61,441 nt of DNA from an uncultured Prevotella sp. GTDB taxonomy: Bacteria; Bacteroidota; Bacteroidia; Bacteroidales; Bacteroidaceae. Within the stretch, counting starts at the first letter, position 1, and each line of letters starts with the position of its first letter. The notes beneath the pieces were generated by a model. That model saw only the letters and a list, made by a program, of their open reading frames with translations. It had not been told where the DNA came from and did not search any database. Made by a program: the position numbers and the translations under genes. The stretch is taken from positions 1-61,441 of the forward strand of contig ONQB01000019.1 of NCBI GenBank assembly GCA_900319905.1, read 5' to 3'. Of this stretch, positions 4,810 to 49,485 are shown piece after piece.

Positions 4810-4866
4810 GGGCGATGCGACTTTTATATCGCACTGACCAAAGGCTTATATCAGTCAGCATCGCCC
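4810..4866. terminator. Inverted repeat at the convergent gene ends
   Basis: GGGCGATGC (4810-4818) pairs with GCATCGCCC (4858-4866), with an inner CTGAC/GTCAG stem. It spans the end of the minus-strand Sel1 gene and the spacer after the ClC gene. There is no long T-tract on either side, so its terminator role is inferred from position. Confidence 0.4.
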
Positions 4867-6128
4867 AAGTATTCGTGGTCGTCATTGTAATTGTCTTCCA
4901 TTTCCTGCATTCGCTCAAGCTGCTCCGTCATTTCCTGTTCATAACGCGGCAAATAAGTTTGCTCGATGGCTGCCGCGTGTGAAGTGAGGAAGCCATTGCG
5001 ATAACCTTGCACTACGGTAGCGAGCGTGTCGCCGCCCAGCAAGAGCGATTTGTAGGCACACTCATAGGCATAAGCCTCATCGTATTCTTTGGGAGCCGTA
5101 TGATCGTCAAGTACCATCCGTGCCAGAGCAGCATAACAAGCAGAATCGCGAAGATTGGCACCGGCAGAATACCAACGCCAAGCCTCTGTGTAATCCTGAG
5201 GAAATCCGTAATTCCCACCTTCGTAATAACCACCGAGATAGAGTGCGCCGATACTCTCACCAAGCATACACGCATATTGCAGATCTTCATCAAGAGCCTT
5301 GTGTACCTCAGTCATATCTTCATCAGATAATGAATCAAACAAGTCCTCATCCACGAGCATGGCATATTCAAGAAAACCTTCCGAGGCAAAGACCTCACGC
5401 GCCCGTTCCATGACTTTGATGAATCCCTCACGGTCTTCTACAAATCCATGCTCATCGCAACAACCATAAAAAGCCGACCAGAAATAAGCTGCGCTGCAGC
5501 CCAATCGGGCTGCTTTCTCATAGTTGTCAAGTGCATTGCTCACCCTCCCCATCCTTAAGTCAGCATCTGCCAAAAGACTAATAAATTGCGGATCAATGTC
5601 GTGCTTGTCCCTTCGCGCCTTTTCGATGATTTGTTCTAATGTATCGTATGCAGCCGAAACATTCTCTTCCTTTCCAAATTGTCCATAAATGGCATCCCGT
5701 ATTTCCTGCTGCCGGGCTTTCTCACTGCCCTCCGCGGCGCTCTTTTCAATAAGCCTCCGATAGAGCGTAACATCGGCCTCGCCAAAGTCACCGTCTCGAT
5801 AGGCCAGCGCTAAAAAGGCGCGTGCATCAGCGATATGACCTAAGAGATAAGCCGATGAATAGTAATGTAACTTCTCATCATTTGAGTTTGATCGGAACTG
5901 AAGACAATCGTGCAACCGCGCCAAGGCATATTGCATGTAGGGATTTCCATTATCAGCCATTCGCTGAATCTTGTCCAAATCCTCAAATAGCAATGCCACG
6001 TTGTTACGAGCCCGCAATATCCGAAGAAAATAATCTTGGCGTTGATGGTCTTGTTCCACATTTTCGGCAGCCGCCCAAAAGGCTTCGCGTGTCTGATAAT
6101 TGATGATAAGTTGTTGTATTGGATTCAT
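4851..6128 (-). CDS. Sel1-like repeat protein, last gene of the Hsp70/GrpE-like unit
   Basis: 425 residues with no signal peptide or membrane segment. The chain is alpha-helical and repetitive. Sel1/TPR-type units are visible, for example ALDNYEKAARLGCSAAYFW (about 205-225) and GALYLGGYYEGGNYGFPQDY followed by TEAWRWYSAGAN (about 300-330), which has the A-x-x-W-Y-x-x-A pattern of Sel1 repeats. Such repeats usually make protein-binding superhelices. The C-terminus is acidic. It follows the 222-residue gene by 48 bases and is the last of six genes on the strand. Function unknown; a scaffold or client-binding role would fit the chaperone context but is inference. Confidence 0.75.
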   Translation of the reverse strand: MNPIQQLIINYQTREAFWAAAENVEQDHQRQDYFLRILRARNNVALLFEDLDKIQRMADNGNPYMQYALARLHDCLQFRSNSNDEKLHYYSSAYLLGHIADARAFLALAYRDGDFGEADVTLYRRLIEKSAAEGSEKARQQEIRDAIYGQFGKEENVSAAYDTLEQIIEKARRDKHDIDPQFISLLADADLRMGRVSNALDNYEKAARLGCSAAYFWSAFYGCCDEHGFVEDREGFIKVMERAREVFASEGFLEYAMLVDEDLFDSLSDEDMTEVHKALDEDLQYACMLGESIGALYLGGYYEGGNYGFPQDYTEAWRWYSAGANLRDSACYAALARMVLDDHTAPKEYDEAYAYECAYKSLLLGGDTLATVVQGYRNGFLTSHAAAIEQTYLPRYEQEMTEQLERMQEMEDNYNDDHEYLGDAD

Positions 6129-6176
6129 AATGCAAGTGTGTTATTATAATAAAAGAGATTTGATGAGGCAATAACT

Positions 6177-6845
6177 TTAATCGAACATGACACGGGGATT
6201 CATTACGCTGGGGCTTTTCCATTCCAAGTTATGACACCTAAGAACCAATGTCTTGGCATGCCAATAAGCGTGACAAAAGCCCATTCTCCTTGGTATGGCG
6301 GCCAACTGCACATCAGTTTCCCGTTCTACATCGTCAATAAGATTTTCGTAAGCCAGACTCCATTCTATTGGGTCGTGTTTAAGATGACCCGTGTTGACTA
6401 TCTCGTCAAAGCGTTTCTCGTCAGCCAGTTGAATGTTTCTTTCATACCTCACAATCTCCGCCTCCACTTCCTCATCTAAGGAGAGTTCATGGCCTTGAAC
6501 AGCCTCTATGCGGTGTATCACCGTCAACTTCATACGCAAAAGGCGCAACCGCAGCCGCTTATGTTCATACACGCAGTCCGTCATTCGCCGTACGGCGAGA
6601 TACAGATTATTCAACATGTGGTCGAAGCCCTCAAGATAGTTGCCATAATGCAGAAAAATCTCGGTCAAGCCCGATATTTCCCAAATGCGACGTTGTTCCT
6701 TTAGGTTATCCTCGGCAAGCAGCACACAGCCACAGCAAATATCGTTATATAGCTCAAGCGACGTTGCATCGCTCGCGAGCGGCAACCCTTTACATTGGTT
6801 CAAAGCATCGTTAAATGCCTTTCTGACAGAAAGATTGTTTTCCAT
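6177..6845 (-). CDS. Uncharacterised helical protein in the Hsp70/GrpE-like unit
   Basis: 222 residues, not recognised. The sequence is predicted mostly helical, rich in Leu, Glu and Arg, with no signal peptide or membrane segment. A strongly charged stretch (YEHKRLRLRLLRMKL, about residues 93-107) is followed by an acidic segment (DEEVEAEIVRYE). The C-terminal third contains several aromatic and His residues (FCHAYWHAK). It lies 13 bases after the DUF1963 gene and 48 bases before the Sel1 gene on the same strand, which supports translation as part of the unit. No catalytic motif could be identified. Confidence 0.65.
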   Translation of the reverse strand: MENNLSVRKAFNDALNQCKGLPLASDATSLELYNDICCGCVLLAEDNLKEQRRIWEISGLTEIFLHYGNYLEGFDHMLNNLYLAVRRMTDCVYEHKRLRLRLLRMKLTVIHRIEAVQGHELSLDEEVEAEIVRYERNIQLADEKRFDEIVNTGHLKHDPIEWSLAYENLIDDVERETDVQLAAIPRRMGFCHAYWHAKTLVLRCHNLEWKSPSVMNPRVMFD

Positions 6846-6858
6846 ATATCACTTTCTT

Positions 6859-7479
6859 TTAATAATAAAACAATTCGCCCGAGGCATTGTCAAACTTCAT
6901 ACGGCACAAGTCGCGCGCCGGTACGAAGAAATAATACATGCCACAGTCGTAGAAACGTAAACCCCAACGGTCATCCTCATCCACCTGCAACAAACACACA
7001 TCGCGCTCATGCAGGCTGCTGACTTCTTCCTGATAAGGCGTTCCGAGCATCATTATGCCATCAGAACAAGGATCCTCGGCCACGGTAAAAACTATTTTCT
7101 CAGCCGGCCGAAAAACACTTTCTCCCGTATCTTCCCAATGCAAATCGTATGGCTTTAAATTCTCTGTCCGTCGCGAATAGATTACCTTTGGCGGCATATG
7201 ATAGTCGAGCGGACTGTCTCTGTCACCAAGGAAATAGTCAAGTGGGGCAAAGAACCACAACATACCCTCATGAGGCAGCAGGTGGGCAGTATCGAAAGGA
7301 GCTATCTCGTCGCACCGTATCTGACAGATAAAAGTAAGGGGCTCGGCATATACCTCACTGTCTTCATGCACGTCCACTGTAGGATAAGGCACATCATCCG
7401 GCAGGTCGGGTGCTCCCCACCAGTGGCTTTTTCCAATGAGCGGCTTGGCGGATGGTTGAGTCAAAAGTTTTATAGCCAT
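6859..7479 (-). CDS. DUF1963 (YwqG-like) protein
   Basis: 206 residues. The opening pattern KSHWWGAPDLPDDVPYP followed by LTFICQIRCDEIAPFD matches the DUF1963/YwqG layout, where a G-G-x-P-x-L-P segment is followed by a Q-I-N/R strand. The rest is beta-rich and acidic, with a hydrophobic MLWFFAPLDYFLGD strand. There is no signal peptide, so it should be cytoplasmic. Biochemical function of the family is unknown to me. It starts 3 bases after the stop of the 700-residue membrane-protein gene, indicating tight translational linkage within the six-gene unit. Confidence 0.7.
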   Translation of the reverse strand: MAIKLLTQPSAKPLIGKSHWWGAPDLPDDVPYPTVDVHEDSEVYAEPLTFICQIRCDEIAPFDTAHLLPHEGMLWFFAPLDYFLGDRDSPLDYHMPPKVIYSRRTENLKPYDLHWEDTGESVFRPAEKIVFTVAEDPCSDGIMMLGTPYQEEVSSLHERDVCLLQVDEDDRWGLRFYDCGMYYFFVPARDLCRMKFDNASGELFYY

Positions 7480-7482
7480 AGT

Positions 7483-9585
7483 TCAAACACGTCTGTAGAG
7501 ATTACCATATTTGTCACGATAAAGCGTGTGACCGCCCGTACCGCCAAGCACTGCCAAGGCGAACAAGGCTGCCAGCACAACGAGAAGAATGCGCACAATA
7601 ACGAAGATGAGTGCTGTCACAGCTACAATGCAGCTCACGGCATAAACCAGGATGAAGACTGATATCAAGCTGCCTCGCAATGCACCTAAATCCTTTATAT
7701 TGAGCATAAAGGTCCTGACAATGCCCACGAGAATGATGAGCAGGAAGATGAAAACGCCCACCATCTCAGCCGTCTCGCCTTTCCAATGGAAGCCCAACTG
7801 CGTTACAAGGAAATAAACAATCAGTGTGGGGAAACTGACAAGAATCCCAATTACGGCTGGCTTAACATGTATTTCGCCGTCAATGGAACCGTCGCAGCAC
7901 AGCAGCAACTCATACATCTTGATGGAGAACAGTTGCACGGCTACCACCACTAAGAAGGGAATGACACGCAACAATGTTCCCAAGAAGCCGTAGCGGTTGT
8001 AATCGCACCACCAGAAAGCACCTGCGCCCATGAGTCTGTACCAGTATATTTCGATGACGGCTACAGCGAGCAAACAGAGTGGAACAACAACCAGCCCGGC
8101 CTCGCGCACCGACCTAACGCCCAACCGCATGCCAGTAATACTGATAGCGAAGACCATGACCAACAACCCGACGATAGTCCAGCAGGGGCCCATAGAAGCA
8201 AAGAATGCTGAAGTAGCATTGCTATATTGCCGTTCGCGATCGCTAAGTATATGCGTCACAACCGGATTGTTGGTCTGACTCCATATCAGATAGTCGCGAC
8301 TGAGGCGATAATACTTGCCGTGGCTCATAAAAACAAAATAGTGCTTGTCATAGGATTGCGGCACTGAGTCGATAAGTTCTCCTTTGGCAAGATAAATTCC
8401 GTTAGCATTTGCCTTGGGCTTCCACCCACTCGCTTCCTTTTTGTCTCTTACCACCCGCGTACAAAAGACGCTGTCTTTGATTGTCGGGCTAACGACATAT
8501 TGCGACAATCCGGAAGGACTAAGCGTGGCATGGTGTCGCGGTCCGCCAAGGCTATCGGCTCCTTCTTTGTGAAGGTCTATAGCGGCGGTTGACGCACCTC
8601 TGACGACAAGACCGGAAAGGCGATGTCCTTGCTTCCCCACAAAAAGCCGGTAGCGAGGGACAGTACTGTCGGCCTGTGTCTGAGCCGCTTCAGCTCGCAG
8701 GCTGTCCATCTCAGTCAGAAAGAGATAATAGCCCTCACGCGCAGAGGTAATACTACCGCCGACTGCCGACTGCCGCAATTGACCATCCTTAACAAAGAGC
8801 CTTCCCTGCATCGTATCGCCATTCACCGTATCAACGATGAGCGTAGCCGGATTGCCGTTCAACTCTCCGTGCCAGTTGCCGCCAAACAGTTTCTGTCCGT
8901 CAGCCAAAGCCACATTCGTATAAGTTTGGAAAAGTAGGAAACATCCAAAAGCAATTAGTGCTGTCAGACCTGCGCCTACACCTATACTAAGACCATACCG
9001 ACCAAACCACCGGCCAATTGGTTCTAACCAATGTGGGGAACGGGACGGAGGGTTAGCATCCTGCTGTCGTCCCGTTGCTGTCGGTCTGCCAGCGTACGGC
9101 ATAGCCTGTCGTTGGGGCTGTGGTTGTTGCCGCTGGGGGCGCGACTGCTGTGACTGAGGTCGGTTAATATGTGGTTTCGGCTGAAAATTTTGCGTTGTTT
9201 GCTGTTGCCGTGGCCGCTCATTGCGCCGTTGTTGCTGTTGGGGCGTCCGCCGCGGGCCGCCCATAGTCTGCTGCATGGCCGTACGAAACTGCTCAAGCGT
9301 CTCGGCATCAGCAGTGTACATCTCCTTGGCCACACCACGGAAATCCTTACTGGCCTGAATGATGTCTCGATTGTTGCCGTGCAGCTTGTCGGCATCACTC
9401 AGCACCTTCACCATACGCTCCACGCGCTGCGTGCACGACGGCCCGAAGCTCACCGTACGCCACAAATTCTTCAGCGCTCCAATAGCTTCCAACTCATCCG
9501 AATGAAGATTGTCGGTATTGGCATCAAGAATGGCAATGGCGTCAGTCCATTTCTTGAGGCGCATTTTGAATATCGTTTCCAGCAT
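7483..9585 (-). CDS. Large multi-domain membrane protein linked to the Hsp70-like chaperone
   Basis: 700 residues, not a recognised family. Parts in order: a helical N-terminal domain (1-108), a low-complexity Gln/Pro/Arg-rich linker (110-185), one membrane segment (about 198-222), a roughly 230-residue soluble part rich in beta strands (KLFGGNWHGELNGNPATLIV at its start), and a cluster of about six membrane segments (about 456-690). The C-terminal tail is short (RDKYGNLYRRV). No HPD tripeptide was seen, so it is not a J-protein. It begins 27 bases after the Hsp70-like gene. The N-terminal cytoplasmic region is the natural candidate to contact the chaperone; this is inference. Confidence 0.7.
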   Translation of the reverse strand: MLETIFKMRLKKWTDAIAILDANTDNLHSDELEAIGALKNLWRTVSFGPSCTQRVERMVKVLSDADKLHGNNRDIIQASKDFRGVAKEMYTADAETLEQFRTAMQQTMGGPRRTPQQQQRRNERPRQQQTTQNFQPKPHINRPQSQQSRPQRQQPQPQRQAMPYAGRPTATGRQQDANPPSRSPHWLEPIGRWFGRYGLSIGVGAGLTALIAFGCFLLFQTYTNVALADGQKLFGGNWHGELNGNPATLIVDTVNGDTMQGRLFVKDGQLRQSAVGGSITSAREGYYLFLTEMDSLRAEAAQTQADSTVPRYRLFVGKQGHRLSGLVVRGASTAAIDLHKEGADSLGGPRHHATLSPSGLSQYVVSPTIKDSVFCTRVVRDKKEASGWKPKANANGIYLAKGELIDSVPQSYDKHYFVFMSHGKYYRLSRDYLIWSQTNNPVVTHILSDRERQYSNATSAFFASMGPCWTIVGLLVMVFAISITGMRLGVRSVREAGLVVVPLCLLAVAVIEIYWYRLMGAGAFWWCDYNRYGFLGTLLRVIPFLVVVAVQLFSIKMYELLLCCDGSIDGEIHVKPAVIGILVSFPTLIVYFLVTQLGFHWKGETAEMVGVFIFLLIILVGIVRTFMLNIKDLGALRGSLISVFILVYAVSCIVAVTALIFVIVRILLVVLAALFALAVLGGTGGHTLYRDKYGNLYRRV

Positions 9586-9612
9586 CGTGTAGTACTTTTA
9601 AGCGTCATCACA

Positions 9613-11214
9613 CTATTCTACCATAGCCTTACTGATGGTGTCGATGGACTGTGACAGTTCCTCTCCCGACTTGACCCCCTGTATGCGCAGGGTAAAGTCG
9701 ATGGCCTCATCGCCCACATTGGCGTGAACGCTCAAGATGCCCTCGCTATCCACGTCGAATATCACAGTAATGGGCGTGCCCTTCGGCCAATTGCGTTTGA
9801 TTTCGAGCGACCGGTCTTCAAGCAGCGTGCAGAAGCGCTCCTCAACAGCCCTGTCGGTCTCTGGGTTGGTAAAATCACTTTCAAACACCTTCATCGGAAC
9901 AGTATGTTGGTTGTCGCACATGGTCTCGAACTCCTGTTCCATCCTTGCGGGCAGCGAAGAGTTGGCGAAAATAAGGTTGCCCACCATTGCCTGGCCTTCG
10001 GGCGTAGTGAAGTCGGTGCCGTAGGTCTTGCTCGTCACGTTGACCACCCTCGCCTTGGGTCCTCTGAGCGTCTTTGGCAAAGGCTTGTCACTGTCACCAT
10101 TTTCCACCTCTTCCACAGCCTTGCGGTAAGCCTCGTTCATGGCATAGATAGCCGCACCCTTAGCCACACACTGGTCAGGGTCGCTGAGTTTGGCATCGCA
10201 TCCGAATTCAGCGTCAAGCCGCTGTTTGACCTGTGGCATTCTGCTCGACCCGCCAACAAGCAGGAACTCAAAATCTGTATTGTAGCCCTTCTCGCGTGCA
10301 ATGTCGATGACCTTATGCGTGGCATCAATCGTCTCGTCAAGATGGGCTTTTGTCAATGTGTCAAAAATTTCGCGTGTCACCTCGAAGCGCGCCGACTGAC
10401 CGTCATACTGCACGTTACACTTCACGACATCCTTGCCCGTGAGCTGTTTTTTCTTCATTTCAGCCTCAAGCAACAGCGTGTATTTCAGTTCCTCATTATC
10501 CATTGTGTAGCTGCAGCCCGTTTGCTGGTTAAACTGGTCAAGCATGTAATTAGCCAGTTCGGTGTCCCAATCCACACCGCCAAGATGGTGGTCACCACCC
10601 GTGGCAATTACCTTAATGGCACCACCATTGACATTGATAATGGTCACGTCGAAGGTGCCGCCGCCCAAGTCATACACTAAGACGGTTTTGCGCTCAGTGG
10701 TCTTCATGCCGTAGGCTATGGCAGCCGCCGTGGGCTCGTTGATGATAGCCAACACGTTGAGACCGGCTATCTCGCCCGCCTGCTTGGTCTGCATGCGCTC
10801 CTTGGTGCCGAAGTATGCGGGGCAAGTAATGACCACATCCTTCACCGGCTCGGGATTGTCGCCCAAATCGTTGGCGTCCTGAACGAGTTTCTTCAGAATA
10901 AGGGCCGAAATCTCCGATGGGTCAAAATGGTAGGGAAATTTATTGGTAGCCTTGTCGAAGTCGGCATCAATACCCATCGAGCGCTTGACAAAACTCACGG
11001 TGTTCTGCGGTTCAGTGGCAAGCATGCCCTTTGCTTCCTGACCCACAATAATTTTGTCGGGACCTTCAAAATATACAACGGACGGCGTAGTGTTGGTTCC
11101 TTCGAAGTTGGTCAGCACGATGGCCTGGTCGTATTGATCGACCTGCGCGATGCAGCTGTATGTGGTTCCTAAGTCAATGCCATAAACGGCACGTGTTTTA
11201 TCGGTTGTTGACAT
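9613..11214 (-). CDS. Hsp70-family chaperone lacking the C-terminal lid
   Basis: 533 residues against about 635 for DnaK. The ATPase domain is intact: GIDLGTTYSCIAQV (12-25), INEPTAAAIAYG, VYDLGGGTFDVTII and LLVGGSSRMPQVKQRL. The beta-sandwich substrate domain is recognisable (DNQHTVPMKVFES, FDVDSEGILSVHA), but the chain stops soon after it, so the helical lid is missing. The linker region does not show the D-V-L-L-L-D pattern of DnaK; ARVVNVTSKTYGTDF occupies that place. It is 55 bases downstream of a GrpE-like gene and 27 bases upstream of a membrane-protein gene. It is thus a dedicated paralogue rather than the housekeeping DnaK. Confidence 0.88.
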   Translation of the reverse strand: MSTTDKTRAVYGIDLGTTYSCIAQVDQYDQAIVLTNFEGTNTTPSVVYFEGPDKIIVGQEAKGMLATEPQNTVSFVKRSMGIDADFDKATNKFPYHFDPSEISALILKKLVQDANDLGDNPEPVKDVVITCPAYFGTKERMQTKQAGEIAGLNVLAIINEPTAAAIAYGMKTTERKTVLVYDLGGGTFDVTIINVNGGAIKVIATGGDHHLGGVDWDTELANYMLDQFNQQTGCSYTMDNEELKYTLLLEAEMKKKQLTGKDVVKCNVQYDGQSARFEVTREIFDTLTKAHLDETIDATHKVIDIAREKGYNTDFEFLLVGGSSRMPQVKQRLDAEFGCDAKLSDPDQCVAKGAAIYAMNEAYRKAVEEVENGDSDKPLPKTLRGPKARVVNVTSKTYGTDFTTPEGQAMVGNLIFANSSLPARMEQEFETMCDNQHTVPMKVFESDFTNPETDRAVEERFCTLLEDRSLEIKRNWPKGTPITVIFDVDSEGILSVHANVGDEAIDFTLRIQGVKSGEELSQSIDTISKAMVE

Positions 11215-11269
11215 AACTGTTGATGATTAATGATTGAAAAATAAATGATAAGCGTATATAAACAGGAAA

Positions 11270-12022
11270 TCAGGCTTTTTTCCGATAGACGGCAATTCGC
11301 GCCTGCCTCAGCACCCGGTTGGTCTCGCAATTGCGGAAACCGCCGGCAATGCATTCGGCCACTGTTCCGCCCTTGTCGATCTCATCAGTCTCTACCACGC
11401 GAATGGCGCGATGGGCCTTCGGGTCGTAGGATTCGCCCGCTGATGGCTCAAAATACTCCACCGAATACTCATCAGCCAAATGGTCGCGTATATATAAATA
11501 GGTGTTGGTGACAAGCCGCTTTGCCTTCTGCGCGTCATAGTCGGGCGCATCCGGCTGAATATGCCTGTCGGTGTCGCCCATTCTTTCGCAGATGCTGAGA
11601 ATGTCGGCCAGGTAATCCTTCTTCAAGTCTTCTATCAGTCCCTTCTTTAGCTGCACCAGTTCCTGGTGCATGTCCCGAATAATCTTCTCCTGATAGGCTG
11701 CAGTGTCTATCTTCTCACCAAGCGACTCCATCTTACCAGCCAATGCTTGCAGGGCATCGGCCACTTTGCCGTCTGAGAGCGGAGACTGCGGCACTGCGGT
11801 TTCCGTTGTCTGTCGTTCCTCGGCGTTAGGGACTGTTTCGGGGTCACTGCCGTTCTCCACCATAGCGGGCGAAGCTTCCGCCTCAGACGGAGACGGCGTA
11901 CAAGGTGGAGTAAGATGCTCGCATACCTTGTCAAGCACCTCGCGCAAATCGTGCACTTGCTTTTGCAGCGTCTGCACATCGTCGCGCAACCTGGTCATTT
12001 CTTCATTGTTGAAAATACTCAT
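11270..12022 (-). CDS. GrpE-like nucleotide exchange factor
   Basis: 250 residues. The C-terminal 55 residues match the GrpE beta domain: AGESYDPKAHRAIRVVETDE (195-214) aligns with the G-E-x-F-D-P-x-x-H-x-A-V motif, followed by GGTVAECIAGGFR and RVLRQARIAVYRK, as in GrpE. Before it lie a helical region (88-190), a Pro/Glu-rich linker (40-85) and an N-terminal coiled coil (7-35). The linker and spacing differ from housekeeping GrpE. It is the first gene of a six-gene unit whose second gene is a lidless Hsp70, so it should release ADP from that partner. Confidence 0.82.
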   Translation of the reverse strand: MSIFNNEEMTRLRDDVQTLQKQVHDLREVLDKVCEHLTPPCTPSPSEAEASPAMVENGSDPETVPNAEERQTTETAVPQSPLSDGKVADALQALAGKMESLGEKIDTAAYQEKIIRDMHQELVQLKKGLIEDLKKDYLADILSICERMGDTDRHIQPDAPDYDAQKAKRLVTNTYLYIRDHLADEYSVEYFEPSAGESYDPKAHRAIRVVETDEIDKGGTVAECIAGGFRNCETNRVLRQARIAVYRKKA

Positions 12023-12228: not shown

Positions 12229-13317
12229 ATGGATTTTGCAAGCCTTCATCGCCTTAGGGACTTTTCCTGTGGGATTATCTTTATGTTTCAAATCATGGGC
12301 ACTCTCATGCTCTATCTGAAAGGACGCACGCACCGCTTGCAGCGTGTGCTCTTTTGGCTGATGCTCTGTCTGTTGGGTGTCAGCTGCTTCGAATTCTATG
12401 TATTTTTCATCCACAATTTCCTTGGCTCACAGCTACGGCCTGTCACCAACATACTGCAGCTTACGGCGGTTCCCTTGTGCCTCATGGTCATCTACGCCGT
12501 TACGCACGACCGATTCATGCAGTGGAAAATTGTCTTGGCCAACATTCTGCCCTACGCCATCGCCTTGGCTGTTTATCTTGCCAGCAACTCGGCCGTAGCT
12601 TATTACGGCATCATCGGCTTTGGCGGAATCCATGCCATAGGCATTATCAGTTATGGCTTTGTCGCTATCAACCATTATAATAAGGAGTTGCAGGACAATT
12701 TTTCCAATGCCGGACAATATTCGATCAACTGGCTCCGCTACATGCTCCTGCTCTATATTGGCCTTGCCGTTACCTGGACTATGGCCACGTTCAACGACTC
12801 TCACATCATGGCAACAATATACAACCTGATGTGTGTGGTCATTTTTGCCCTGCTCTATTACTTCGTCTATCGGCAGGAGAATATGGTTGAGGCCTTAGCC
12901 ACTTCTAATACTGAAGACGCGGCACGCATGCCAACAAATTCGCCGGAAGACAATTCTGCCGACAGCGCGGAAAGCAACAGCCAACCTAACTATCTCTTTG
13001 CCGACCGGTTGGAGTCCGTCTTCAGCAAAGGCAAGATTTATCTCAATGCCACCCTCACTCTCAACGATCTGGCCCGCGAACTCGGTACCAACCGCACCTA
13101 TCTGTCCAACTATCTCAACCAACAGTTGCACACTACCTTTTACGAATATGTCAACCAATGGCGCGTTCGGCGTGCCAAGGAGCTGCTTCGTGCCAACAGT
13201 CTGCCGTTGGAAGACATTGCCCTGCAGTCGGGCTTCAATTCCATGAGCAGCTTCCGACGTTATTTCATCGCACATACTGGAATGTCACCACTCGAATACC
13301 GAAAAGCCAGGACATAG
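12229..13317 (+). CDS. 7-TM membrane protein with C-terminal AraC-type DNA-binding domain
   Basis: 362 residues. Residues about 12-235 contain seven hydrophobic segments, then an acidic and Ser/Asn-rich linker (about 238-262) leads to a two-HTH AraC domain (about 265-360). The AraC part shows LTLNDLARELGTNRTYLSNY and LEDIALQSGFNSMSSFRRYF, ending in TGMSPLEYRKAR. The layout predicts a membrane-bound sensor that binds DNA directly. A second protein of identical architecture is encoded at 27323-28450. It is divergent from the chaperone unit across a 206-base gap, so it could regulate that unit; this is inference. The signal sensed is unknown. Confidence 0.85.
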   Translation: MDFASLHRLRDFSCGIIFMFQIMGTLMLYLKGRTHRLQRVLFWLMLCLLGVSCFEFYVFFIHNFLGSQLRPVTNILQLTAVPLCLMVIYAVTHDRFMQWKIVLANILPYAIALAVYLASNSAVAYYGIIGFGGIHAIGIISYGFVAINHYNKELQDNFSNAGQYSINWLRYMLLLYIGLAVTWTMATFNDSHIMATIYNLMCVVIFALLYYFVYRQENMVEALATSNTEDAARMPTNSPEDNSADSAESNSQPNYLFADRLESVFSKGKIYLNATLTLNDLARELGTNRTYLSNYLNQQLHTTFYEYVNQWRVRRAKELLRANSLPLEDIALQSGFNSMSSFRRYFIAHTGMSPLEYRKART

Positions 13318-23754: not shown

Positions 23755-24351
23755 ATGAGAAATCTTGCAGAGCTGACCGACGAAGAGTTGGCCATTAGCT
23801 ACATGGAGGGCGATAACAAGGCTTTTGAACTGTTGCTAGCGCATAATCAGTCGAAGGTCTTCTCTTATATTTTATTTGTCGTCCATGACGAAGACAGGGC
23901 GAACGACATCTTCCAAGACACCTTTATCAAGATCATTGCGAAGTTGCAGAAAGGCCTTTATACACCAACAGGTAAGTTCAGTGCCTGGTGCATGCGCATC
24001 GCGCATAATGTCATCATGGACCACTACCGTGGCATCAGAAACGGCCACATCGTAGAACCGACTGAGGACAACGACTTGTCGAACCTCAGTGGCGAGAACA
24101 TGGAAGTGACCAATATCGAGAACGATTACGTCAATCAACAGGTGCTCGACGATGTGAAGAAAATGATGCGGCTGCTGCCTGCACCTCAGCGTGAGGTGGT
24201 CTACATGCGTTTCTACCAGCAACTGTCGTTTAAGGAGATTGCCGATGTGACCAACGTGAGCATCAACACCGCCTTAGGACGCATGCGTTACGCATTGCTC
24301 AACATGCGTAAGATGGCACGCGATCATAACCTGCAACTGCAATTGGTCTAA
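23755..24351 (+). CDS. ECF-type RNA polymerase sigma factor
   Basis: 198 residues. Region 2 (about 15-85) shows FSYILFVVHDEDRANDIFQDTFIKII and WCMRIAHNVIMDHYR, the -10 recognition/melting helix pattern. Region 4 (about 130-190) contains LPAPQREVVYMRF and LSFKEIADVTNVSINTALGRMRYAL, a helix-turn-helix for the -35 element. Regions 1 and 3 are absent, as in ECF sigma factors. No anti-sigma gene is adjacent; the next gene, rpe, is convergent. It is transcribed from a normal housekeeping-type promoter, so activity may be set at the level of expression or by a distant partner. Confidence 0.88.
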   Translation: MRNLAELTDEELAISYMEGDNKAFELLLAHNQSKVFSYILFVVHDEDRANDIFQDTFIKIIAKLQKGLYTPTGKFSAWCMRIAHNVIMDHYRGIRNGHIVEPTEDNDLSNLSGENMEVTNIENDYVNQQVLDDVKKMMRLLPAPQREVVYMRFYQQLSFKEIADVTNVSINTALGRMRYALLNMRKMARDHNLQLQLV

Positions 24352-24371
24352 CTTACAGCCGTAAGTCTATC

Positions 24372-25028
24372 TTACAGTTGTTTCAATTCATGGATGATGG
24401 TTTCCGGACTGTCAGCCTTGAACACGTAGCTTCCACTCACCAGCACGTCCACCCCTGCCTCCACCAAACGCGGTGCAGTAGTGGCATTGACACCGCCATC
24501 CACTTCGATGAGGGCATGCGAACCGCTCTCAGCAATGAGACGACGCAACCGGCGCACCTTATTGAGCGTGTTCTCAATGAACTGCTGCCCGCCAAACCCA
24601 GGGTTGACACTCATGACCAACACCATGTCGACGTTGGCAATGACATCCTCCAGCAAGCTCACGGGTGACGACGGATTGAGAGCCACGCCGGCCTTCATGC
24701 CAGCCTCATGAATCTGATAGATCAGACGGTGGAGATGCACGGCTGCTTCCTGATGCACCGTCATCATCATGGCACCTGCCTTCGCCGCCGCATCGACATA
24801 GCGTTCGGGCTGCACAATCATAAAGTGCATATCGAGCGGCTTGCGGCATATACTATGTACGGCTTGCAAGACGGGGAAGCCAAATGAAATGTTGGGAACA
24901 AACACACCATCCATCACATCGCAGTGCAACCAGTCGGCTTCACTTCGATTTATCATATCAATGTCGGCTTTCAGATTGGTGAAGTCGGCAGCGAGCAATG
25001 ACGGCGAAACGAGTATAGGCTTATTCAT
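24372..25028 (-). CDS. rpe: Ribulose-phosphate 3-epimerase
   Basis: 218 residues from the ATG at 25028; the longer frame to 25082 begins with a TTG and adds residues with no family match. It interconverts ribulose-5-phosphate and xylulose-5-phosphate in the pentose phosphate pathway. Motifs: VSPSLLAADF (start of the barrel), WLHCDVMDGVFVPNISFG (metal His and Asp), DMHFMI, VMSVNPGFGGQQFI and IEVDGGVNATTAP (catalytic Asp). It is convergent with the sigma gene, 20 bases apart. The gene stands alone on its strand. Confidence 0.93.
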   Translation of the reverse strand: MNKPILVSPSLLAADFTNLKADIDMINRSEADWLHCDVMDGVFVPNISFGFPVLQAVHSICRKPLDMHFMIVQPERYVDAAAKAGAMMMTVHQEAAVHLHRLIYQIHEAGMKAGVALNPSSPVSLLEDVIANVDMVLVMSVNPGFGGQQFIENTLNKVRRLRRLIAESGSHALIEVDGGVNATTAPRLVEAGVDVLVSGSYVFKADSPETIIHELKQL

Positions 25029-25385
25029 GGTTAATGCGCTAATATTATCCGCAGTAAAGAGGTCAGTTACGACAGAGGTCAATTACGACCACGCCAAATC
25101 CAACGGTTCGGCCAGCTCCTGACTGCCAGAAGCCTTATGCCTCCACAACCGCTTGCAAGCCACCTTGCGGATGATAAAAAGTGACAACTCTGATGGTTGC
25201 GCGTCTTGAAGTAAAACATATTTCATAGGCAATACGTTGAATTGTGTAAAGGTTCTACCCTCTTATTGTTATTACAACGTAGGCCTTATTGGTTTTATTT
25301 TTCAAAGCTATTAATTTTTTGCGACTTAGGCGAAAATAAAGGTAAAATAGTCAGTCGTTTATGCGTAAGTTACGGGGGTTTTTAT

Positions 25386-25393
25386 TAACTTTG
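25386..25393 (+). promoter_or_regulatory. Promoter -7 box of the secreted-protein gene
   Basis: TAACTTTG 31 bases before the ATG at 25425. No correctly spaced TTTG. The 396-base stretch 25029-25424 otherwise holds only a weak 47-codon frame on the minus strand (25226-25083). Confidence 0.5.
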
Positions 25394-25424
25394 CTACATC
25401 ATAAACCAATTAACACATCACTTT

Positions 25425-27002
25425 ATGAACAAAATTTTACGTTTTACACTCGGTCTCGTTGCCTTGTGTCTCAGCAGTGCTCTTTATGCAGCCGAGACGG
25501 CAATCGACTTCACCGCGCAAACCATTACAAAGACCGATAATGGTTTCACGCTCACCGTTGATCCCTTTACTTTCACGGCGCTGAAGAATAATGGTGCTAC
25601 TGCTCCTACTCAAAATGGTAACTCTAAGGATCTCCGGCTCTATGCCAAGAATTCCCTGGAAGTTCAAAGCAACACTACCATGACGTCTATGGTGTTCACT
25701 GTGTCTAAGCAGGGCAAGAAGCGCCTCACCGACATCACGCCGAGTACCGGTACAGTTACTATTGATACAGAGGCTTGGACAGTTACATGGACCGGTTCTG
25801 CTTCCGAGGTTACTTTCACAGTGGGTGACAAGGCCACTTATGGCACAGATGGTAAAGATAAAGGCGGTCAATTCGACGTTGACAACGTCACCATCACAAC
25901 CGGTGCCAGCACCCCAATTGTAGATGTTGCCGAGCCTACCATCTCCGGCAAGACACCGTTCACCGGCAGCACGACCGTGACTATCTCCATTCCTGAGAAC
26001 ACAACGGTCTACTACACCACTGACGGTTCCACACCTAACGACAACGGTGACGAATACACCGATCCCTTTACCATCAGCGCTACCACAACCGTCAAAGCTG
26101 TCGCTTACGACAAGGCAGGTAATGCCAGCAACGTGGTGACCAAGGAATTTGTCATGAATCGCACCGGCAAGGGCTCCGCAACTGATCCTTATACTGTCAG
26201 CGAGGTTCTCGCCCTTGAGTCTGCCCCCGCTGACACCATCTACATCACCGGTAAGGTTGTAGCTGGCGTGGCAGGCACGTCTTTCAACAACGCCAGCTAC
26301 TACATCTCTGACGACGGCACTGCCGACAACCAGCTCGAGGTGTACCGTGGCAAGTATATTGATGGTGGCAACTTCACTCCAAGCCTGAAGCTGACCGCAG
26401 GTGACGTAGTTGTGATCAAGGGTGTCCTGACAACTTACAACGATACCTATGAGGTGACCGCAGGCAGCAGCATCGTGACCATCAATGGCACGAAAGATCC
26501 TGAAACTGTCGAGATCGATCCTAACGCCAAGGGTACTGAGAACAATCCTTACACCGCCGGCGAGGTGATGGCTCTGACCACACTCCCCGTTTATGAGGTC
26601 TATGTCTCCGGCACTGTTGTAACTACAGTTTCCGGCAGCGATCAGTATAAGAACGCCGACTATTACATCTCTAACGATGGTACCGAGAACAATCAACTCA
26701 AGGTTTTTCGTGGCAAGTGGCTCGGCGGTGCCAACTTCACTTCCGCTCAGACACTGAACGCTGGCGACAAGGTTGTCGTGAAGGGCACCTTAACTGATTA
26801 CACCAACAAATCAGGTGTGACCACTCGTGAATTCGCTCAGGGCAGTCAGATTGTTAGCCTCAATGGCACAACCACTGCCATCAGCAGTATCAAGAGCAAT
26901 ACCGTCGACAATGCTGCCATCTACAATCTCGCAGGCCAGCGCGTAAGCAAGACCTACAAGGGCATGGTCATCAAGAACGGCAAGAAGTATATTGCCCGCT
27001 AA
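25425..27002 (+). CDS. Secreted protein with chitobiase-type and duplicated OB-like domains and a C-terminal sorting motif
   Basis: 525 residues, with a signal peptide (residues 1-22, ending ALYA-AE). Residues about 24-160 form a beta-rich domain; about 168-243 resemble a chitobiase/beta-hexosaminidase C-terminal domain (VYYTTDGSTPND, TVKAVAYDKAGN); 248-355 and 369-481 are two copies of one domain, both with the pattern Y-T-x-x-E-V-x-A-L, Y-Y-I-S-x-D-G-T, N-Q-L-x-V-x-R-G-K and G-D-x-V-V-x-K-G. The C-terminus (AIYNLAGQRVSKTYKGMVI, then KNGKKYIAR) resembles sorting tails of Prevotella surface proteins. No catalytic residues were identified. Surface adhesion or glycan or nucleic-acid binding are possible roles. 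Confidence 0.8.
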   Translation: MNKILRFTLGLVALCLSSALYAAETAIDFTAQTITKTDNGFTLTVDPFTFTALKNNGATAPTQNGNSKDLRLYAKNSLEVQSNTTMTSMVFTVSKQGKKRLTDITPSTGTVTIDTEAWTVTWTGSASEVTFTVGDKATYGTDGKDKGGQFDVDNVTITTGASTPIVDVAEPTISGKTPFTGSTTVTISIPENTTVYYTTDGSTPNDNGDEYTDPFTISATTTVKAVAYDKAGNASNVVTKEFVMNRTGKGSATDPYTVSEVLALESAPADTIYITGKVVAGVAGTSFNNASYYISDDGTADNQLEVYRGKYIDGGNFTPSLKLTAGDVVVIKGVLTTYNDTYEVTAGSSIVTINGTKDPETVEIDPNAKGTENNPYTAGEVMALTTLPVYEVYVSGTVVTTVSGSDQYKNADYYISNDGTENNQLKVFRGKWLGGANFTSAQTLNAGDKVVVKGTLTDYTNKSGVTTREFAQGSQIVSLNGTTTAISSIKSNTVDNAAIYNLAGQRVSKTYKGMVIKNGKKYIAR

Positions 27003-27024
27003 TCAGACAGATAGTCAATAATGG

Positions 27025-27042
27025 TCCGCAGCCAACTGCGGA
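27025..27042 (+). terminator. Short hairpin after the secreted-protein gene
   Basis: TCCGCAG (27025-27031) pairs with CTGCGGA (27036-27042) around CCAA, 23 bases after the stop. It is followed by TTATAC only, so the T-tract is weak; the MITE-like unit downstream may add termination. Confidence 0.5.
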
Positions 27043-27055
27043 TTATACACCCAAA

Positions 27056-27200
27056 GGAGGGTGTATCAAAATTGGAAAAGTTCAGGGGTTAGGAAGCTCT
27101 GTCATTACCATAATGACATCTTATTGTCAGATACCTATGCATTTGACTGAACTTCCGGACTTCGGGTCTCCCGGACTTCTCCAATTTTGATACACCCTCC
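27056..27200. repeat. MITE-like element, copy 2
   Basis: 145 bases. The left end GGAGGGTGTATCAAAATTGG and right end CCAATTTTGATACACCCTCC are perfect 20-base inverted repeats. The interior shares GTCATTAC, TCTTATTGTCAGATA and CATTTGAC with the copy at 16262-16413. It has no open frame. The inverted arms continue imperfectly inward. It sits between the secreted-protein gene and the second 7-TM/AraC gene. Confidence 0.8.
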
Positions 27201-27288
27201 TTCTTATTGTGCCTCTTACGCTGTGTGTTGTAGTAAGGATTTAATATTTTTATTGCAAGAACAAGGCGGCAATATCGAACAAAATCAC

Positions 27289-27296
27289 TACATTTG
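27289..27296 (+). promoter_or_regulatory. Promoter -7 box of the second 7-TM/AraC gene
   Basis: TACATTTG fits TAnnTTTG and lies 26 bases before the start at 27323. No good -33 match. Confidence 0.5.
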
Positions 27297-27322
27297 CAAT
27301 ATCAATACCAAAAGACTTCAAC

Positions 27323-28450
27323 GTGACCTCATTATTTATCATACAACTGGTTTGCTGCACGGTGACGGCGCTGCTGGCTCTACAGTTAGCCATCACAAGT
27401 CTGCAAGTGAGATGGAGAGTACGGCGCTACGAAGTGTCGAGATGGCTGCTTTGCGCCTCCATGCTTCTTTTTACCATACATTACCTCCTGCAGATGATCA
27501 AAGGACTGCGCGCCCAGGGAGCCGACGTGGGGGCTGAGTTCAACATTCTGTTCTATACGCCGGTCTCGTTTGTCGTCACCCTCTCCATCATCAATATCGA
27601 AAGCACCGCAAGCAAGTTGCGCCGCTATTGCCTGTGCAGTGCCATTGCCTATGTGGTCATCGTCGCAGTCTTCGTTATCGGTGTGCTGACCAGCCACAGT
27701 CTTCACATAGGCAATCTGCTCTATGTCATGCTCGCATTGTTCGTCATTAGCATGGCATATTTCATTGTTGTCAATCGTCGTGAGATGAACAGACAAAGAA
27801 AACGTCTTATGCTGAATTACGGGCGCGATTTAGCTCTCTTCGAGCGGTTCTCCCAAGTCAGCAACTTAATGCTGTGTATTGCAGGCGGTCTTCTGCCATT
27901 GGCCATTCTCTTCAACAATATAATAAAATACGCAGGACCGTTGATGCTGCTCACCATTGTTATATACACCCAAACGTTTATTTCATTGGGCTACTACCTC
28001 ACGCCCAATGAGGAAGTCGAAGATGAAGAAGAGAAATGCGTGGCAGACGAAGAGACTGCCAACGCCACACAGACAGGTGAAGACTCAGTGACCACGACAA
28101 CGACACTATCTGAGAGTAGAAGACAAGAGATAGAACGGGCTCTCAGCAAATGGTGCCAGGAACGGCACTATCAAGACTGCAACGCCACCATTTATACACT
28201 GGCCACTGATATCAACTGCAAGAAGAGCGAATTGACGGAATATTTCAATCTGTCGTCTTACACCAACTTCCGCACATGGCTCAGCGACATCCGCTTCAAT
28301 GAGGCCGTGCGCATGATGAAGAACTTCCCCCAATACAGCAACGATGCCATCTCGACTGAGTGCGGCTTCTCGTCGCACACGCAAATCTATAGGCTCTTCA
28401 AACAGAAGACGGGGCTCTCGCCCAGCCAATGGCGCGACCAGTTCGTATAG
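27323..28450 (+). CDS. 7-TM membrane protein with C-terminal AraC-type DNA-binding domain (second copy)
   Basis: 375 residues from a GTG start at 27323, placed just after the promoter box. Seven hydrophobic segments occupy residues about 4-235; an acidic linker (NEEVEDEEEKCVADEE) follows, then an AraC domain (about 268-372) with IYTLATDINCKKSELTEYF and AISTECGFSSHTQIYRLF, ending TGLSPSQWRDQF. Same layout as 12229-13317 but diverged in sequence. The predicted role is a membrane-bound regulator responding to an envelope or extracellular cue. It is monocistronic with a strong terminator downstream. Targets are unknown. Confidence 0.85.
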   Translation: MTSLFIIQLVCCTVTALLALQLAITSLQVRWRVRRYEVSRWLLCASMLLFTIHYLLQMIKGLRAQGADVGAEFNILFYTPVSFVVTLSIINIESTASKLRRYCLCSAIAYVVIVAVFVIGVLTSHSLHIGNLLYVMLALFVISMAYFIVVNRREMNRQRKRLMLNYGRDLALFERFSQVSNLMLCIAGGLLPLAILFNNIIKYAGPLMLLTIVIYTQTFISLGYYLTPNEEVEDEEEKCVADEETANATQTGEDSVTTTTTLSESRRQEIERALSKWCQERHYQDCNATIYTLATDINCKKSELTEYFNLSSYTNFRTWLSDIRFNEAVRMMKNFPQYSNDAISTECGFSSHTQIYRLFKQKTGLSPSQWRDQFV

Positions 28451-28509
28451 AGACACACGTACGCTCCAACTTCAGGACAAAGCTTTTCTACCCTACGCCC
28501 CCGCCCTAT

Positions 28510-28545
28510 AAGGTGTTGCATTTCCACAAATGCAACACCTTTTTT
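28510..28545 (+). terminator. Strong intrinsic terminator
   Basis: A perfect 13-base stem, AGGTGTTGCATTT (28511-28523) with AAATGCAACACCT (28528-28540), loop CCAC, then TTTTT. It follows the second AraC-type gene by 60 bases. Confidence 0.9.
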
Positions 28546-28612
28546 CGTATAAATGCAACAAATACCGTACAAAAGCAACAGTCCTGCTTGGCTGAAATAT
28601 ATTAATTTTGCC

Positions 28613-28620
28613 AGACTGCA
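28613..28620 (+). promoter_or_regulatory. Promoter -7 box of the small membrane gene
   Basis: TAATTTTG fits TAnnTTTG, about 116 bases upstream of the ATG at 28737, leaving a rather long leader. No -33 match at the right distance. Confidence 0.4.
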
Positions 28621-28736
28621 AAACATATGGGAGAAACGACAGCTAAAGAAGTACCGTAAGCGCTTATCTACCGAAGTCCAACACCCAACCTAAGGCAGTA
28701 CAAGTACATAGACAAACTTACAAAAACAAATAAGAG

Positions 28737-29147
28737 ATGAGACAGTTCATATTAGCCCATCGTTCATCCATTCTGTACACTGCCTTATTGTCTATAGGCA
28801 TCGAGATATGCCTTGTAGATCATTCGTTGGTGGCAAAGAGTATCGTGGAAGCAGTCGCCATATTTGTATGCGTTCTATTTATCGTCAGTATTGTGGGAGA
28901 CATCAAGAATAACAAATATTCCTTTGTGTCAAAGCCAAAGAGAAGGAATGTCTTTTCCTACATTGATGTGGCAATTTGCCTTATTGGCGTAAATGTCAAT
29001 ATTCTATCTGAATCGGAACATTGCTTCTGGGTCTTCATGCTCGTAATTACAGTTCTAAAAATCATTCTGCCCTACATCACAGCTAAGATCGGGAATTACT
29101 TCATTAGGATAGGTAACAAGAGAAGTCATTCAAGTCTTGCAAGATAG
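28737..29147 (+). CDS. Uncharacterised small membrane protein
   Basis: 136 residues, no recognised family. Four likely membrane segments: about 11-25, 33-52, 73-90 and 96-118. Charged loops (DIKNNKYSFVSKPKRRN) and a basic tail (RIGNKRSHSSLAR) follow the positive-inside rule. Codon use is more AT-rich than in neighbouring genes, which may indicate more recent acquisition. It is isolated between the AraC-type gene and the convergent glucan module. The function is unknown. Confidence 0.6.
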   Translation: MRQFILAHRSSILYTALLSIGIEICLVDHSLVAKSIVEAVAIFVCVLFIVSIVGDIKNNKYSFVSKPKRRNVFSYIDVAICLIGVNVNILSESEHCFWVFMLVITVLKIILPYITAKIGNYFIRIGNKRSHSSLAR

Positions 29148-29210
29148 ATAGATTTGCAGCAGGTGAGTGCGCAATGGCAAGACGGAGAGACACCTTTCAG
29201 CAATGAGCAA

Positions 29211-29233
29211 GGCGCGGTCTTTATGGCCGCGCC
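29211..29233. terminator. GC-rich hairpin between convergent genes
   Basis: GGCGCGG (29211-29217) pairs with CCGCGCC (29227-29233). No T-tract in either direction, so a terminator role is only positional. Confidence 0.35.
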
Positions 29234-29321
29234 CTGTAATAGGTTCTACTGTACACACAGGCGAGAGCACCTGTACAACAGCAGGAAAATGGTAAGACCG
29301 TATACTTAAGAAGCCGCTCGA

Positions 29322-30734: not shown

Positions 30735-30802
30735 TTTTCCTTTGGGCTTTTACGTTCGAGCAATCGATTGCTCAAGCAGGTAGTTGGTGTATGACTTAAT
30801 GA

Positions 30803-32071
30803 TTACTTCCAGTGCAGGGTACGGAGATACAGTTCTCTTATCCATGCCCCCACCTTTTCCCAGGTGATTTGTGCCACTTCTTTCTGCCCTTCCTCCGAGA
30901 GATAATGGAAGAGGCTTTCGTTGTGGCAGATGCTGTAGATGGCGTCAGCCAGGGCGTTGATGTCCCAGTAGTCTATCTTGAAGCAGTTGTCCAGTATTTC
31001 GGCGCATCCGCTCTGCTTGGAGATGATGGTCGGCGTGCCGCACTGCATGGCTTCGAGTGGTGAGATGCCAAACGGCTCACTGACCGATGGCATGACATAG
31101 ACGTCGGAGTCTTTAAGACATTCATACACCTGCTTGCCACGCATGAAGCCAGGGAAATGGAAGCGGTCGGCAATGCCCCGCTCGGCGGCCAGATAGATCA
31201 TCTGGTCCATCATATCACCCGAGCCGGCCATGCAGAAACGAATGTTATGGGTGCGGTGCAGCACCATGTTGGCAGCCTCAACGAAATACTCCGGGCCTTT
31301 CTGCATGGTGATACGCCCGAGGAACGTCACTATCTTTTCCTTTCCGGTATGGTCCGGTCTCGGGATGGCGGCATTCTCAGCACTCAGCGGATAGACGGCA
31401 TTGTGCACGGTAAACACCTTGCGCGGGTCTTGGTGATACTGGTTGATGACGGTCTGTCTGGTCAGTTCCGACACACACATGATGCAGTCGGCATGGTCCA
31501 TACCATCTTTCTCGATGCCATACACAGTAGGATTGACATGACCGCGCGAGCGGTCGTAGTCAGTGGCGTGTACATGGATGCACAACGGCTTGCCGCTCAC
31601 CTGCTTGGCAAAGATGCCGGCAGGATAGGTGAGCCAGTCGTGGGCATGAATGATGTCAAACTGCTCGGTGCGAGCTACGACGCCGGCAATGATGCTGTAG
31701 TTGTTGATCTCGTCGTGAAGGTTACTGGGGTAGCCTCCGGCAAACTCCATGCATCCCAGATCATTGACATGCATGTAATTGAAATCGGCATACAAGTGGT
31801 CACGGTAGCGGTAATAGTCATTAGGGTCCATTAAGTTACCGATACGTGACTTTACATAATCATAGTTGACATCACGGTAGACGATAGGCACACAGTTCAT
31901 GGCCACAATACGGGCGAACGTATGATCCTCATCGCCCCAGGGCCGGGGCAGGCAGAGCGTGATGTCGATGTCGCCCTGTGCGTGCAATCCCTCGGAGATA
32001 CCGAAGTTGGCAGTGGCAAGGCCGCCATACACATGAGGAGGATACTCCCATCCAAACATTAATACTTTCAT
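30803..32071 (-). CDS. GT4 glycosyltransferase, probably glycogen synthase
   Basis: 422 residues, cytoplasmic, two Rossmann domains. The N-terminal acceptor-side motif MKVLMFGWEYPPHVYGGLA resembles starch/glycogen synthase K-x-G-G-L segments. The C-terminal donor domain has TFLGRITMQKGPEYFVEAA and the E-x7-E motif SEPFGISPLEAMQCGTP. Placed between a GH133 debranching enzyme (18 bases upstream) and a GH57-like gene, it most likely extends alpha-1,4-glucan chains from nucleotide-glucose, but the donor cannot be told from sequence. Full length for GT4. Confidence 0.85.
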   Translation of the reverse strand: MKVLMFGWEYPPHVYGGLATANFGISEGLHAQGDIDITLCLPRPWGDEDHTFARIVAMNCVPIVYRDVNYDYVKSRIGNLMDPNDYYRYRDHLYADFNYMHVNDLGCMEFAGGYPSNLHDEINNYSIIAGVVARTEQFDIIHAHDWLTYPAGIFAKQVSGKPLCIHVHATDYDRSRGHVNPTVYGIEKDGMDHADCIMCVSELTRQTVINQYHQDPRKVFTVHNAVYPLSAENAAIPRPDHTGKEKIVTFLGRITMQKGPEYFVEAANMVLHRTHNIRFCMAGSGDMMDQMIYLAAERGIADRFHFPGFMRGKQVYECLKDSDVYVMPSVSEPFGISPLEAMQCGTPTIISKQSGCAEILDNCFKIDYWDINALADAIYSICHNESLFHYLSEEGQKEVAQITWEKVGAWIRELYLRTLHWK

Positions 32072-32089
32072 TAGCAGGTCCTCCTTATA

Positions 32090-49472: not shown

Positions 49473-49485
49473 CTCTTGTATTCAG

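Follow-up and report, generated by a model that had tools for sequence, protein, structure and literature searches.

A lidless Hsp70 without J-protein docking residues, encoded with a GrpE-like partner and a membrane adaptor in an uncultured Prevotella

Contig ONQB01000019.1 of an uncultured Prevotella sp. (GenBank assembly GCA_900319905.1) was analysed over positions 1 to 61,441, a stretch of 61,441 nucleotides referred to here as the window. It contains six minus-strand genes, the first three of which encode a divergent GrpE-like protein, an Hsp70 without the helical lid, and a membrane adaptor protein. The first three, joined by a fourth where the adaptor's membrane module is encoded separately, constitute a core whose gene order is kept at all 24 loci examined, and genes 4–6 are accessory. 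Judging from its sequence, the Hsp70 has kept its ATPase residues and probably no longer takes the canonical J-domain trigger. We consider the chances about even that the core is a J-independent, membrane-tethered Hsp70 switch used for stress or conflict signalling rather than for bulk folding. The core genes and the positions in gene 2 that bear on this are:

11270..12022, minus strand: gene 1, divergent GrpE-like protein of 250 residues (Pfam GrpE, 5.9e-11)
9613..11214, minus strand: gene 2, lidless Hsp70 of 533 residues with an ATPase and a beta substrate domain (Pfam HSP70, 5e-100; alignment with E. coli DnaK)
10804..10809, minus strand: codons of G136-T137, corresponding to DnaK N147-D148, replaced (DnaK alignment)
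10747..10749, minus strand: codon of A156, corresponding to DnaK R167, a contact of the J-domain His-Pro-Asp (HPD) motif, replaced (DnaK alignment)
10144..10146, minus strand: codon of Y357, corresponding to DnaK Q378, the second HPD contact, replaced (DnaK alignment)
10039..10053, minus strand: interdomain linker A-R-V-V-N, residues 388–392, versus V-L-L-L-D (DnaK alignment)
7483..9585, minus strand: gene 3, membrane adaptor of 700 residues (sequence, profile, hydropathy)

The open reading frames of genes 1–6 (250, 533, 700, 206, 222, and 425 residues) lie where a preliminary description of this DNA had placed them, with intergenic gaps of 55, 27, 3, 13, and 48 bases. That description had called gene 1 GrpE-like, and its Pfam match bears this out at 42.8 bits against a cut-off of 25.8. 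It had also reported that gene 2 ends without a lid and lacks the usual linker, and this too is correct: the Pfam match spans just positions 1–501 of the 599 in the HSP70 profile, and in the DnaK alignment the protein ends about 20–25 residues past the beta domain. Elsewhere the host genome encodes a complete DnaK (profile positions 1–598 of 599, contig C6), three J-domain loci, and a canonical GrpE (G000:C27:123819-124301) that adjoins a J-domain gene. Genes 1 and 2 are thus a second, divergent pair, with gene 1 the second GrpE of the genome and gene 2 a paralogue of DnaK. The preliminary description had named a main DnaK truncated by sequencing error as the finding that would undo its reading of a dedicated pair; the full-length DnaK on C6 and the recurrence of the lidless form at 24 loci rule this out, and that reading stands.

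We aligned 15 lidless sequences with 15 controls and then added ten further lidless sequences to give 25, with two duplicates left uncounted. The controls were DnaK, HscA, and HscC of E. coli, six Prevotella DnaKs, two Hsp70s from viral contigs, three other Hsp70s of loci L049 and L051, and L010, a distant Hsp70-like protein (25% identity) from an Acidimicrobiales contig that was excluded from the lidless group. Residues D8, T11, K70, E171, D194, T199, and D201 are kept in 25/25 lidless sequences and in 15/15 controls; gene 2 is a member of the Hsp70 superfamily with its phosphate and catalytic residues all present. Its ratio of nonsynonymous to synonymous substitution rates (dN/dS) relative to the L003 homologue is ~0.035, at a dS of 1.39 that is near saturation.

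The J-docking residues have had a different fate. We presume that E206 is a J contact in DnaK. The published contacts are as follows: R167 and Q378 of DnaK bond to the HPD aspartate, the L391 backbone to the histidine, and P419 to the proline, and D477 meets J-domain K48 (PMC8215388), with further contacts at D393, D481, and residues near 146–148 (PMC7289447, PMC4022485). In every one of the 25 lidless sequences the R167 position is occupied by A, G, S, D, or T, the Q378 position by Y, F, H, or T, and D148 is lost; all three residues are kept in 14/15 controls, the exception being L010. Position 147 is glycine throughout the lidless set, but the controls themselves vary there (N, S, D, or E), which makes the substitution less telling. 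Fifteen of the 25 lidless sequences were obtained by substrate-domain searches alone, so the loss of the J residues was not selected for by the search. The lidless sequences separate from the rest with a local support of 0.939 (FastTree, ATPase domain), and the J site was probably lost in a single ancestral event and the loss then kept. Residues 126–166 of gene 2, which surround the lost site, are nearly invariant among ten relatives, and this suggests that a different partner docks there. An HPD motif is absent from all six proteins; the earlier remark that no J-protein is encoded here was therefore right and indeed understated, since the Hsp70 also lacks the residues at which one would dock.

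The site for the exchange factor is altered as well. The GrpE signature loop (positions 290–295) is gapped in 25/25 lidless sequences and likewise in three other Hsp70s (L049b, L049c, and L051b), and it is reported to be deleted in HscA and absent in HscC (PMC8215388). Canonical GrpE should consequently not fit the lidless Hsp70, and a co-diverged GrpE-like partner is encoded adjacent to it, with a GrpE-like gene directly before the lidless Hsp70 at 24/24 loci. The weakest matches to a profile built from these GrpE-like sequences are in L123 (4e-7) and L125 (1.2e-5), and the GrpE-like genes of L050 (3.4e-14) and L119 (9.9e-38) were recognized on a second look.

A scan of genome contigs yielded eight Hsp70 relatives, seven of which (L003–L009, on contigs labelled Prevotella, Prevotellaceae, Bacteroides, and Phocaeicola) are 66–92% identical (best segment) over nearly the whole of gene 2. 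The 24 loci comprise the window, L003–L009, L053, L048–L052, L115–L123, and L125, and include near copies (L007/L008, L052/L120/L121, and L115/L116/L117); G115, G235, G301, G1137, and G1217 are the same as L003, L005, L009, L008, and L006 and are counted once. All 24 have the order GrpE-like gene, lidless Hsp70, third gene, with the third gene on the same strand, although in L009 a second lidless Hsp70 intervenes before it, as do one or two further Hsp70s in L051 and L049. The lineage is sporadic. Profile searches found a lidless Hsp70 in 5/299 genomes of the window's genus (its own included), in 11/129 genomes of genus g26, and in 3/61 of genus g27. In a sample of the family, 237 of 399 genomes matched at a lenient threshold at which DnaK itself scores ~40 bits; six, the window's included, lie above the DnaK level at 52–297 bits in frames of 506–544 residues, as judged by inspection of the matches. 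Samples of the phylum yielded the gene 3 N-domain in 1/395 genomes (that of the window itself) and the substrate domain in 3/345, the other two being in DnaK-like frames of 645–656 residues.

Gene 3 can be divided into the following parts:

9241..9585, minus strand: N-domain, residues 1–115, five helices, presumably cytosolic (AlphaFold2 model)
8986..9240, minus strand: linker rich in Gln, Pro, and Arg, about residues 116–200 (sequence; predicted local distance difference test score, pLDDT, mostly <50)
8929..8985, minus strand: first membrane segment, residues 201–219 (hydropathy)
8401..8928, minus strand: beta-rich part, presumably periplasmic (low-confidence model, pLDDT <70)
7486..8400, minus strand: C-terminal module, about residues 396–700, with six further membrane segments (match to L006, profile matches)

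Seven hydrophobic segments are seen in the hydropathy profile, and the 700-residue protein with its Gln/Pro/Arg linker is as the preliminary description had it. The N-domain, modelled from ten aligned N-domains, is a confident five-helix bundle (pLDDT 91.3, predicted template modelling score 0.83). Foldseek gave no significant PDB match for it (best E 0.69), and in the fold comparison its matches are tied and of middling strength, as is common for helical bundles; no J-domain is prominent among them, a result that speaks neither for nor against a J-like fold. Its comparison with J-domains gives an hhalign probability of 0.04% (E 0.88), and no HPD motif occurs in gene 3 or in the third protein of any other of the 24 loci. 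L006 encodes the C-terminal module separately, in a gene that follows the adaptor (38% identity over 345 residues), and profile matches place separate modules in L007, L008, L052, L115–L117, L120, and L121 (E 3e-5 to 3e-10); the profile found none in L009, L048–L051, L053, L118, L119, L122, L123, or L125. An SH3_3 domain is present in the separate module genes of L008, L052, and L116 and is unmatched in the L006 module gene and in gene 3 itself. Gene 3 is thus a natural fusion of adaptor and membrane module, and that the two are fused here and separate in relatives supports their belonging to a shared complex.

The gene 3 N-domain is recognized at 16/24 loci (the window, L003–L009, L053, L048, L115–L119, and weakly L123 at 1.1e-5). 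A clear membrane segment, defined as a hydropathy of at least 1.6, is present in 15/24 (the window, L003–L009, L048, L050, L053, L118, L119, L122, and L125). SH3_3 and TonB_C domains are found in the third proteins of L048 and L052, SH3_3 in those of L007, L009, and L123, and MORN repeats in those of L050, L118, and L119.

With the docking site for the J trigger lost and the ATP engine kept, a dedicated membrane-linked switch is probable and a general folding machine is not. Gene 2 would bind and hydrolyse ATP and present an open beta substrate domain; lacking a lid, it could bind and release quickly and would not trap clients as DnaK does. Its nucleotide state would most likely be coupled to gene 3 instead of to a J-domain trigger, with the five-helix N-domain of gene 3 recruiting it to the inner membrane and the dedicated GrpE-like protein resetting it. 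The part of gene 3 presumed to face the envelope and the six-helix membrane module (fused here, elsewhere a separate SH3-carrying or plain membrane protein) may sense the envelope or act on it, and genes 4–6 together with a membrane AraC regulator would form an accessory layer. As for the membrane-tethered chaperone machine first proposed for these genes, the dedicated Hsp70/GrpE pair, the membrane-tethered third protein, and the separation from the main DnaK hold up, and its six-gene extent does not. More tentatively, the lidless proteins might constitute a class of Hsp70 machine of their own, with a membrane adaptor in the place of the J trigger. Such a machine would act on envelope-facing membrane proteins as a switch or assembly factor driven by ATP, and its motor would also have been plugged into GTPase- and kinase-based signalling islands. 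J-proteins have been described as obligatory Hsp70 cochaperones (PMC7289447), and the lidless proteins form a bacterial lineage, sporadic yet recurrent, in which the ATPase residues persist, the docking residues are gone, and a dedicated GrpE-like partner is encoded. This lineage is a natural experiment on how much an Hsp70 can achieve when both J-protein and lid are missing, and on the way in which ATPase switches become part of membrane signalling in the Bacteroidales.

Several observations weigh against a membrane-tethered, J-independent switch. The role of the N-domain as the Hsp70 partner is proposed from gene order, and the domain is unrecognized at 8/24 loci (L049–L052, L120–L122, and L125), where other adaptors must serve. 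Hydropathy reveals only a weaker stretch (1.43–1.60) in the third proteins of L052, L115–L117, L120, and L121, and no convincing membrane segment in those of L049, L051, and L123. The full-length model of gene 3 is poor (pLDDT 46.8), the N-domain being its best-predicted part. The loss of R167 and Q378 is shared by the control L010, and the remaining J contacts give no uniform picture, with P419 kept in 16/25 lidless sequences (14/15 controls), D393 in 7/25 (15/15), and D477 in 6/25 (9/15). If the J site was lost in one old event, as is probable, the 25 sequences are not independent. The signature loop is gone as in HscA and HscC, so that even the pairing of gene 2 with the GrpE-like protein is putative. 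PADLOC (2023 library) gave no credible match in the six proteins, the nearest being one weak match of gene 1 (0.0046).

The neighbourhoods of the relatives point to stress or conflict signalling. In L049 and L051, DO-GTPase2 and GAP1-N2 domains are matched above cut-off beside the GrpE and lidless Hsp70 genes and further Hsp70s; the third protein is a zinc-ribbon protein (above cut-off in L051, slightly below in L049) with a stretch resembling J-domains (hhalign 91.7%, E 1e-7, based on two sequences only) that lacks an HPD motif, and an FN3 match in L051 is below cut-off. In L122 and L123, kinase, vWA, and PP2C genes precede the triad, and we take these to be TerY-P genes. These associations would be accounted for if the unit served defence against phage or conflict between bacteria, with the Hsp70 switch gating the membrane module of gene 3 as an effector, since systems of the GAP1-N2/DO-GTPase2 type are called conflict systems (PMC7159879) and the kinase-vWA-PP2C trio has been linked to defence (PMC11090510). 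The patchy distribution and the pairing of gene 4 and gene 5 relatives beside AAA, FHA, PP2C, and DUF4062 proteins elsewhere fit it too. Pfam, however, matches no nuclease or toxin domain in the unit, PADLOC is negative as noted, and protection from phage by a tethered lidless form is unreported in the portions of the literature consulted; we regard this explanation as rather unlikely. An ordinary chaperone recruited to the membrane for envelope protein quality control, which would use a general J-protein of the host through a rewired interface, seems to us improbable. Several third proteins look envelope-facing (SH3_3, TonB_C), the three J-domain loci of the genome could serve gene 2, and the kept P419 fits such an arrangement. 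The positions F426, V436, and I472, presumably in the substrate pocket, are retained in 22/25, 20/25, and 15/25 lidless sequences. Such a chaperone would nonetheless have to work without R167, Q378, and D148 in every lidless sequence and without a lid for holding a client, and presence in so few genomes of the genus is unusual for housekeeping. A decayed, functionless remnant of DnaK and GrpE might show the same loss of lid, linker, and J site and the same low GrpE similarity, and it is largely refuted by the invariant catalytic residues, the low dN/dS of gene 2, the high identity across seven contigs, and the kept gene order.

A membrane-tethered switch of this kind resembles several known systems in part. 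Conflict systems centred on GAP1-N2 GTPases include an HSP70 and GrpE branch (Kaur et al. 2020, PMC7159879), likewise with a linked HSP70, GrpE, and large third protein, and the lidless L049a and L051a lie in such systems. The six genes differ in having no GTPase or GAP1-N2 domain, and a membrane adaptor in place of a zinc-ribbon protein with a degenerate J-like part; in the excerpt of that paper neither the Hsp70 lid nor the J site is mentioned. TerY-P modules and the Hsp70-like CoCoNuT protein CnuD also set a chaperone-like ATPase beside phospho-switch genes, as the trio beside the triad does in L122 and L123, but the six genes hold no kinase, vWA, or PP2C, and CnuD is described with degenerate ATPase motifs where gene 2 has kept its catalytic residues (PMC11090510). 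None of the GAP1-N2, DO-GTPase, kinase, TerY-like vWA, or PP2C families was matched by Pfam among the six genes. HscC of E. coli, with DjlB and DjlC, is similarly a specialized second Hsp70 linked to membrane proteins; unlike gene 2, it possesses a lid and cooperates with J-proteins, apparently without GrpE (PMC8215388), and in our alignment it keeps R167 and Q378. With DnaK-DnaJ-GrpE the core shares the ATPase, the beta substrate domain, and a GrpE-type partner, and it differs in lacking the lid, R167/Q378, and the signature loop, in its altered linker, and in having an adaptor in place of DnaJ. Word searches of the literature, with most subscription journals outside their scope, found no description of a stand-alone tethered lidless Hsp70. 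Chaperone-centred signalling and conflict modules are already published; what appears to be new within the literature searched is the membrane-tethered form that stands alone and the absence of the two HPD-binding residues.

Downstream of the core, and on its other side, lie:

6859..7479, minus strand: gene 4, accessory DUF1963 protein of 206 residues (Pfam DUF1963, 1.2e-19)
6177..6845, minus strand: gene 5, accessory protein of 222 residues with a conserved C-terminal motif (alignment of relatives)
4851..6128, minus strand: gene 6, accessory Sel1-like protein of 425 residues (sub-threshold repeat match)
12229..13317, plus strand: AraC-family regulator with a membrane N-part, divergent from gene 1 (HTH_18, 7.8e-24)

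The DUF1963 assignment of gene 4 agrees with the preliminary description. The Sel1 label given there to gene 6 is likely correct, and it draws on matches that fall below cut-off (Sel1 at 0.037 as the best Pfam match, 1.6e-4 for the L053 relative, likewise under the curated cut-off). Neither gene 3 nor gene 5 matches a family above the Pfam cut-off, and NCBIfam returned solely matches under its cut-offs for the six proteins. The six genes are not one fixed unit, contrary to what was first thought: relatives of genes 5 and 6 lie beside the triad at 5/24 loci (the window, L003, L004, L005, and L053) and those of gene 4 at 4/24 (the same without L053). Their order differs in L004 and L005, and in L053 they are upstream. 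At the other 19 loci, some of which end close by, no relatives of genes 4–6 were found at 1e-4. Gene 5 is present in 4/80 genomes. The AraC regulator, overlooked in the preliminary description, stays with the six-gene form and has relatives beside the unit in L003 (69%), L004 (54%), L005 (54%), and, more distantly, L053 (33%), with none at the 19 loci beyond these and the window.

The genes flanking the unit in L004 and L005 are common to both (order, sequence starts) and not to the window. The segment that immediately follows the unit in L003 is matched by five other genes of the window (from 23755 to 34033), and the unit with its AraC gene is inverted relative to that segment between the two loci; for this pair, rearrangement within one region is therefore as likely as separate insertion. 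Relatives of genes 4 and 5 are also paired where no lidless Hsp70 is in view, with AAA, FHA, and PP2C proteins at L096:6931-8396 and with DUF4062 and AAA proteins at L097:556-1959.

Variant arrangements of the Hsp70 genes include tandem lidless copies (L009:6121-9301), 66% and 57% identical to gene 2, which reflect duplication inside the triad, and Hsp70s with a vWA domain at the place of the lid (L051:5708-7828, VWA 4.4e-16; L049:9131-11194, L049c, 6e-18), which keep R167 and Q378. Genes for a coupling protein of conjugation (T4SS-DNA_transf, 2.1e-64) and for a DA1-like protein lie at L049:676-5094, shortly before the GrpE/Hsp70 system of that locus, so that carriage by an integrative element is likely. 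On an IMG/VR contig (L054:262-4863), primase and MobA relaxase genes adjoin a GrpE-like gene and an Hsp70 frame of only 170 residues, which may mark a mobile element at the edge of the unit or inside it. Triads of two genera (L048:4421-11461 and L115:1481-13323) have ribosome recycling factor and rsgA genes as neighbours, on different sides (Pfam), and these surroundings are a possible insertion hotspot. Opposite the triad of L050 is a gene for a TIR-domain protein of 1089 residues (L050:2750-6019; TIR_2, 1.1e-14). The window itself also contains a tandem pair of tRNA-Asp genes at 49485-49656.

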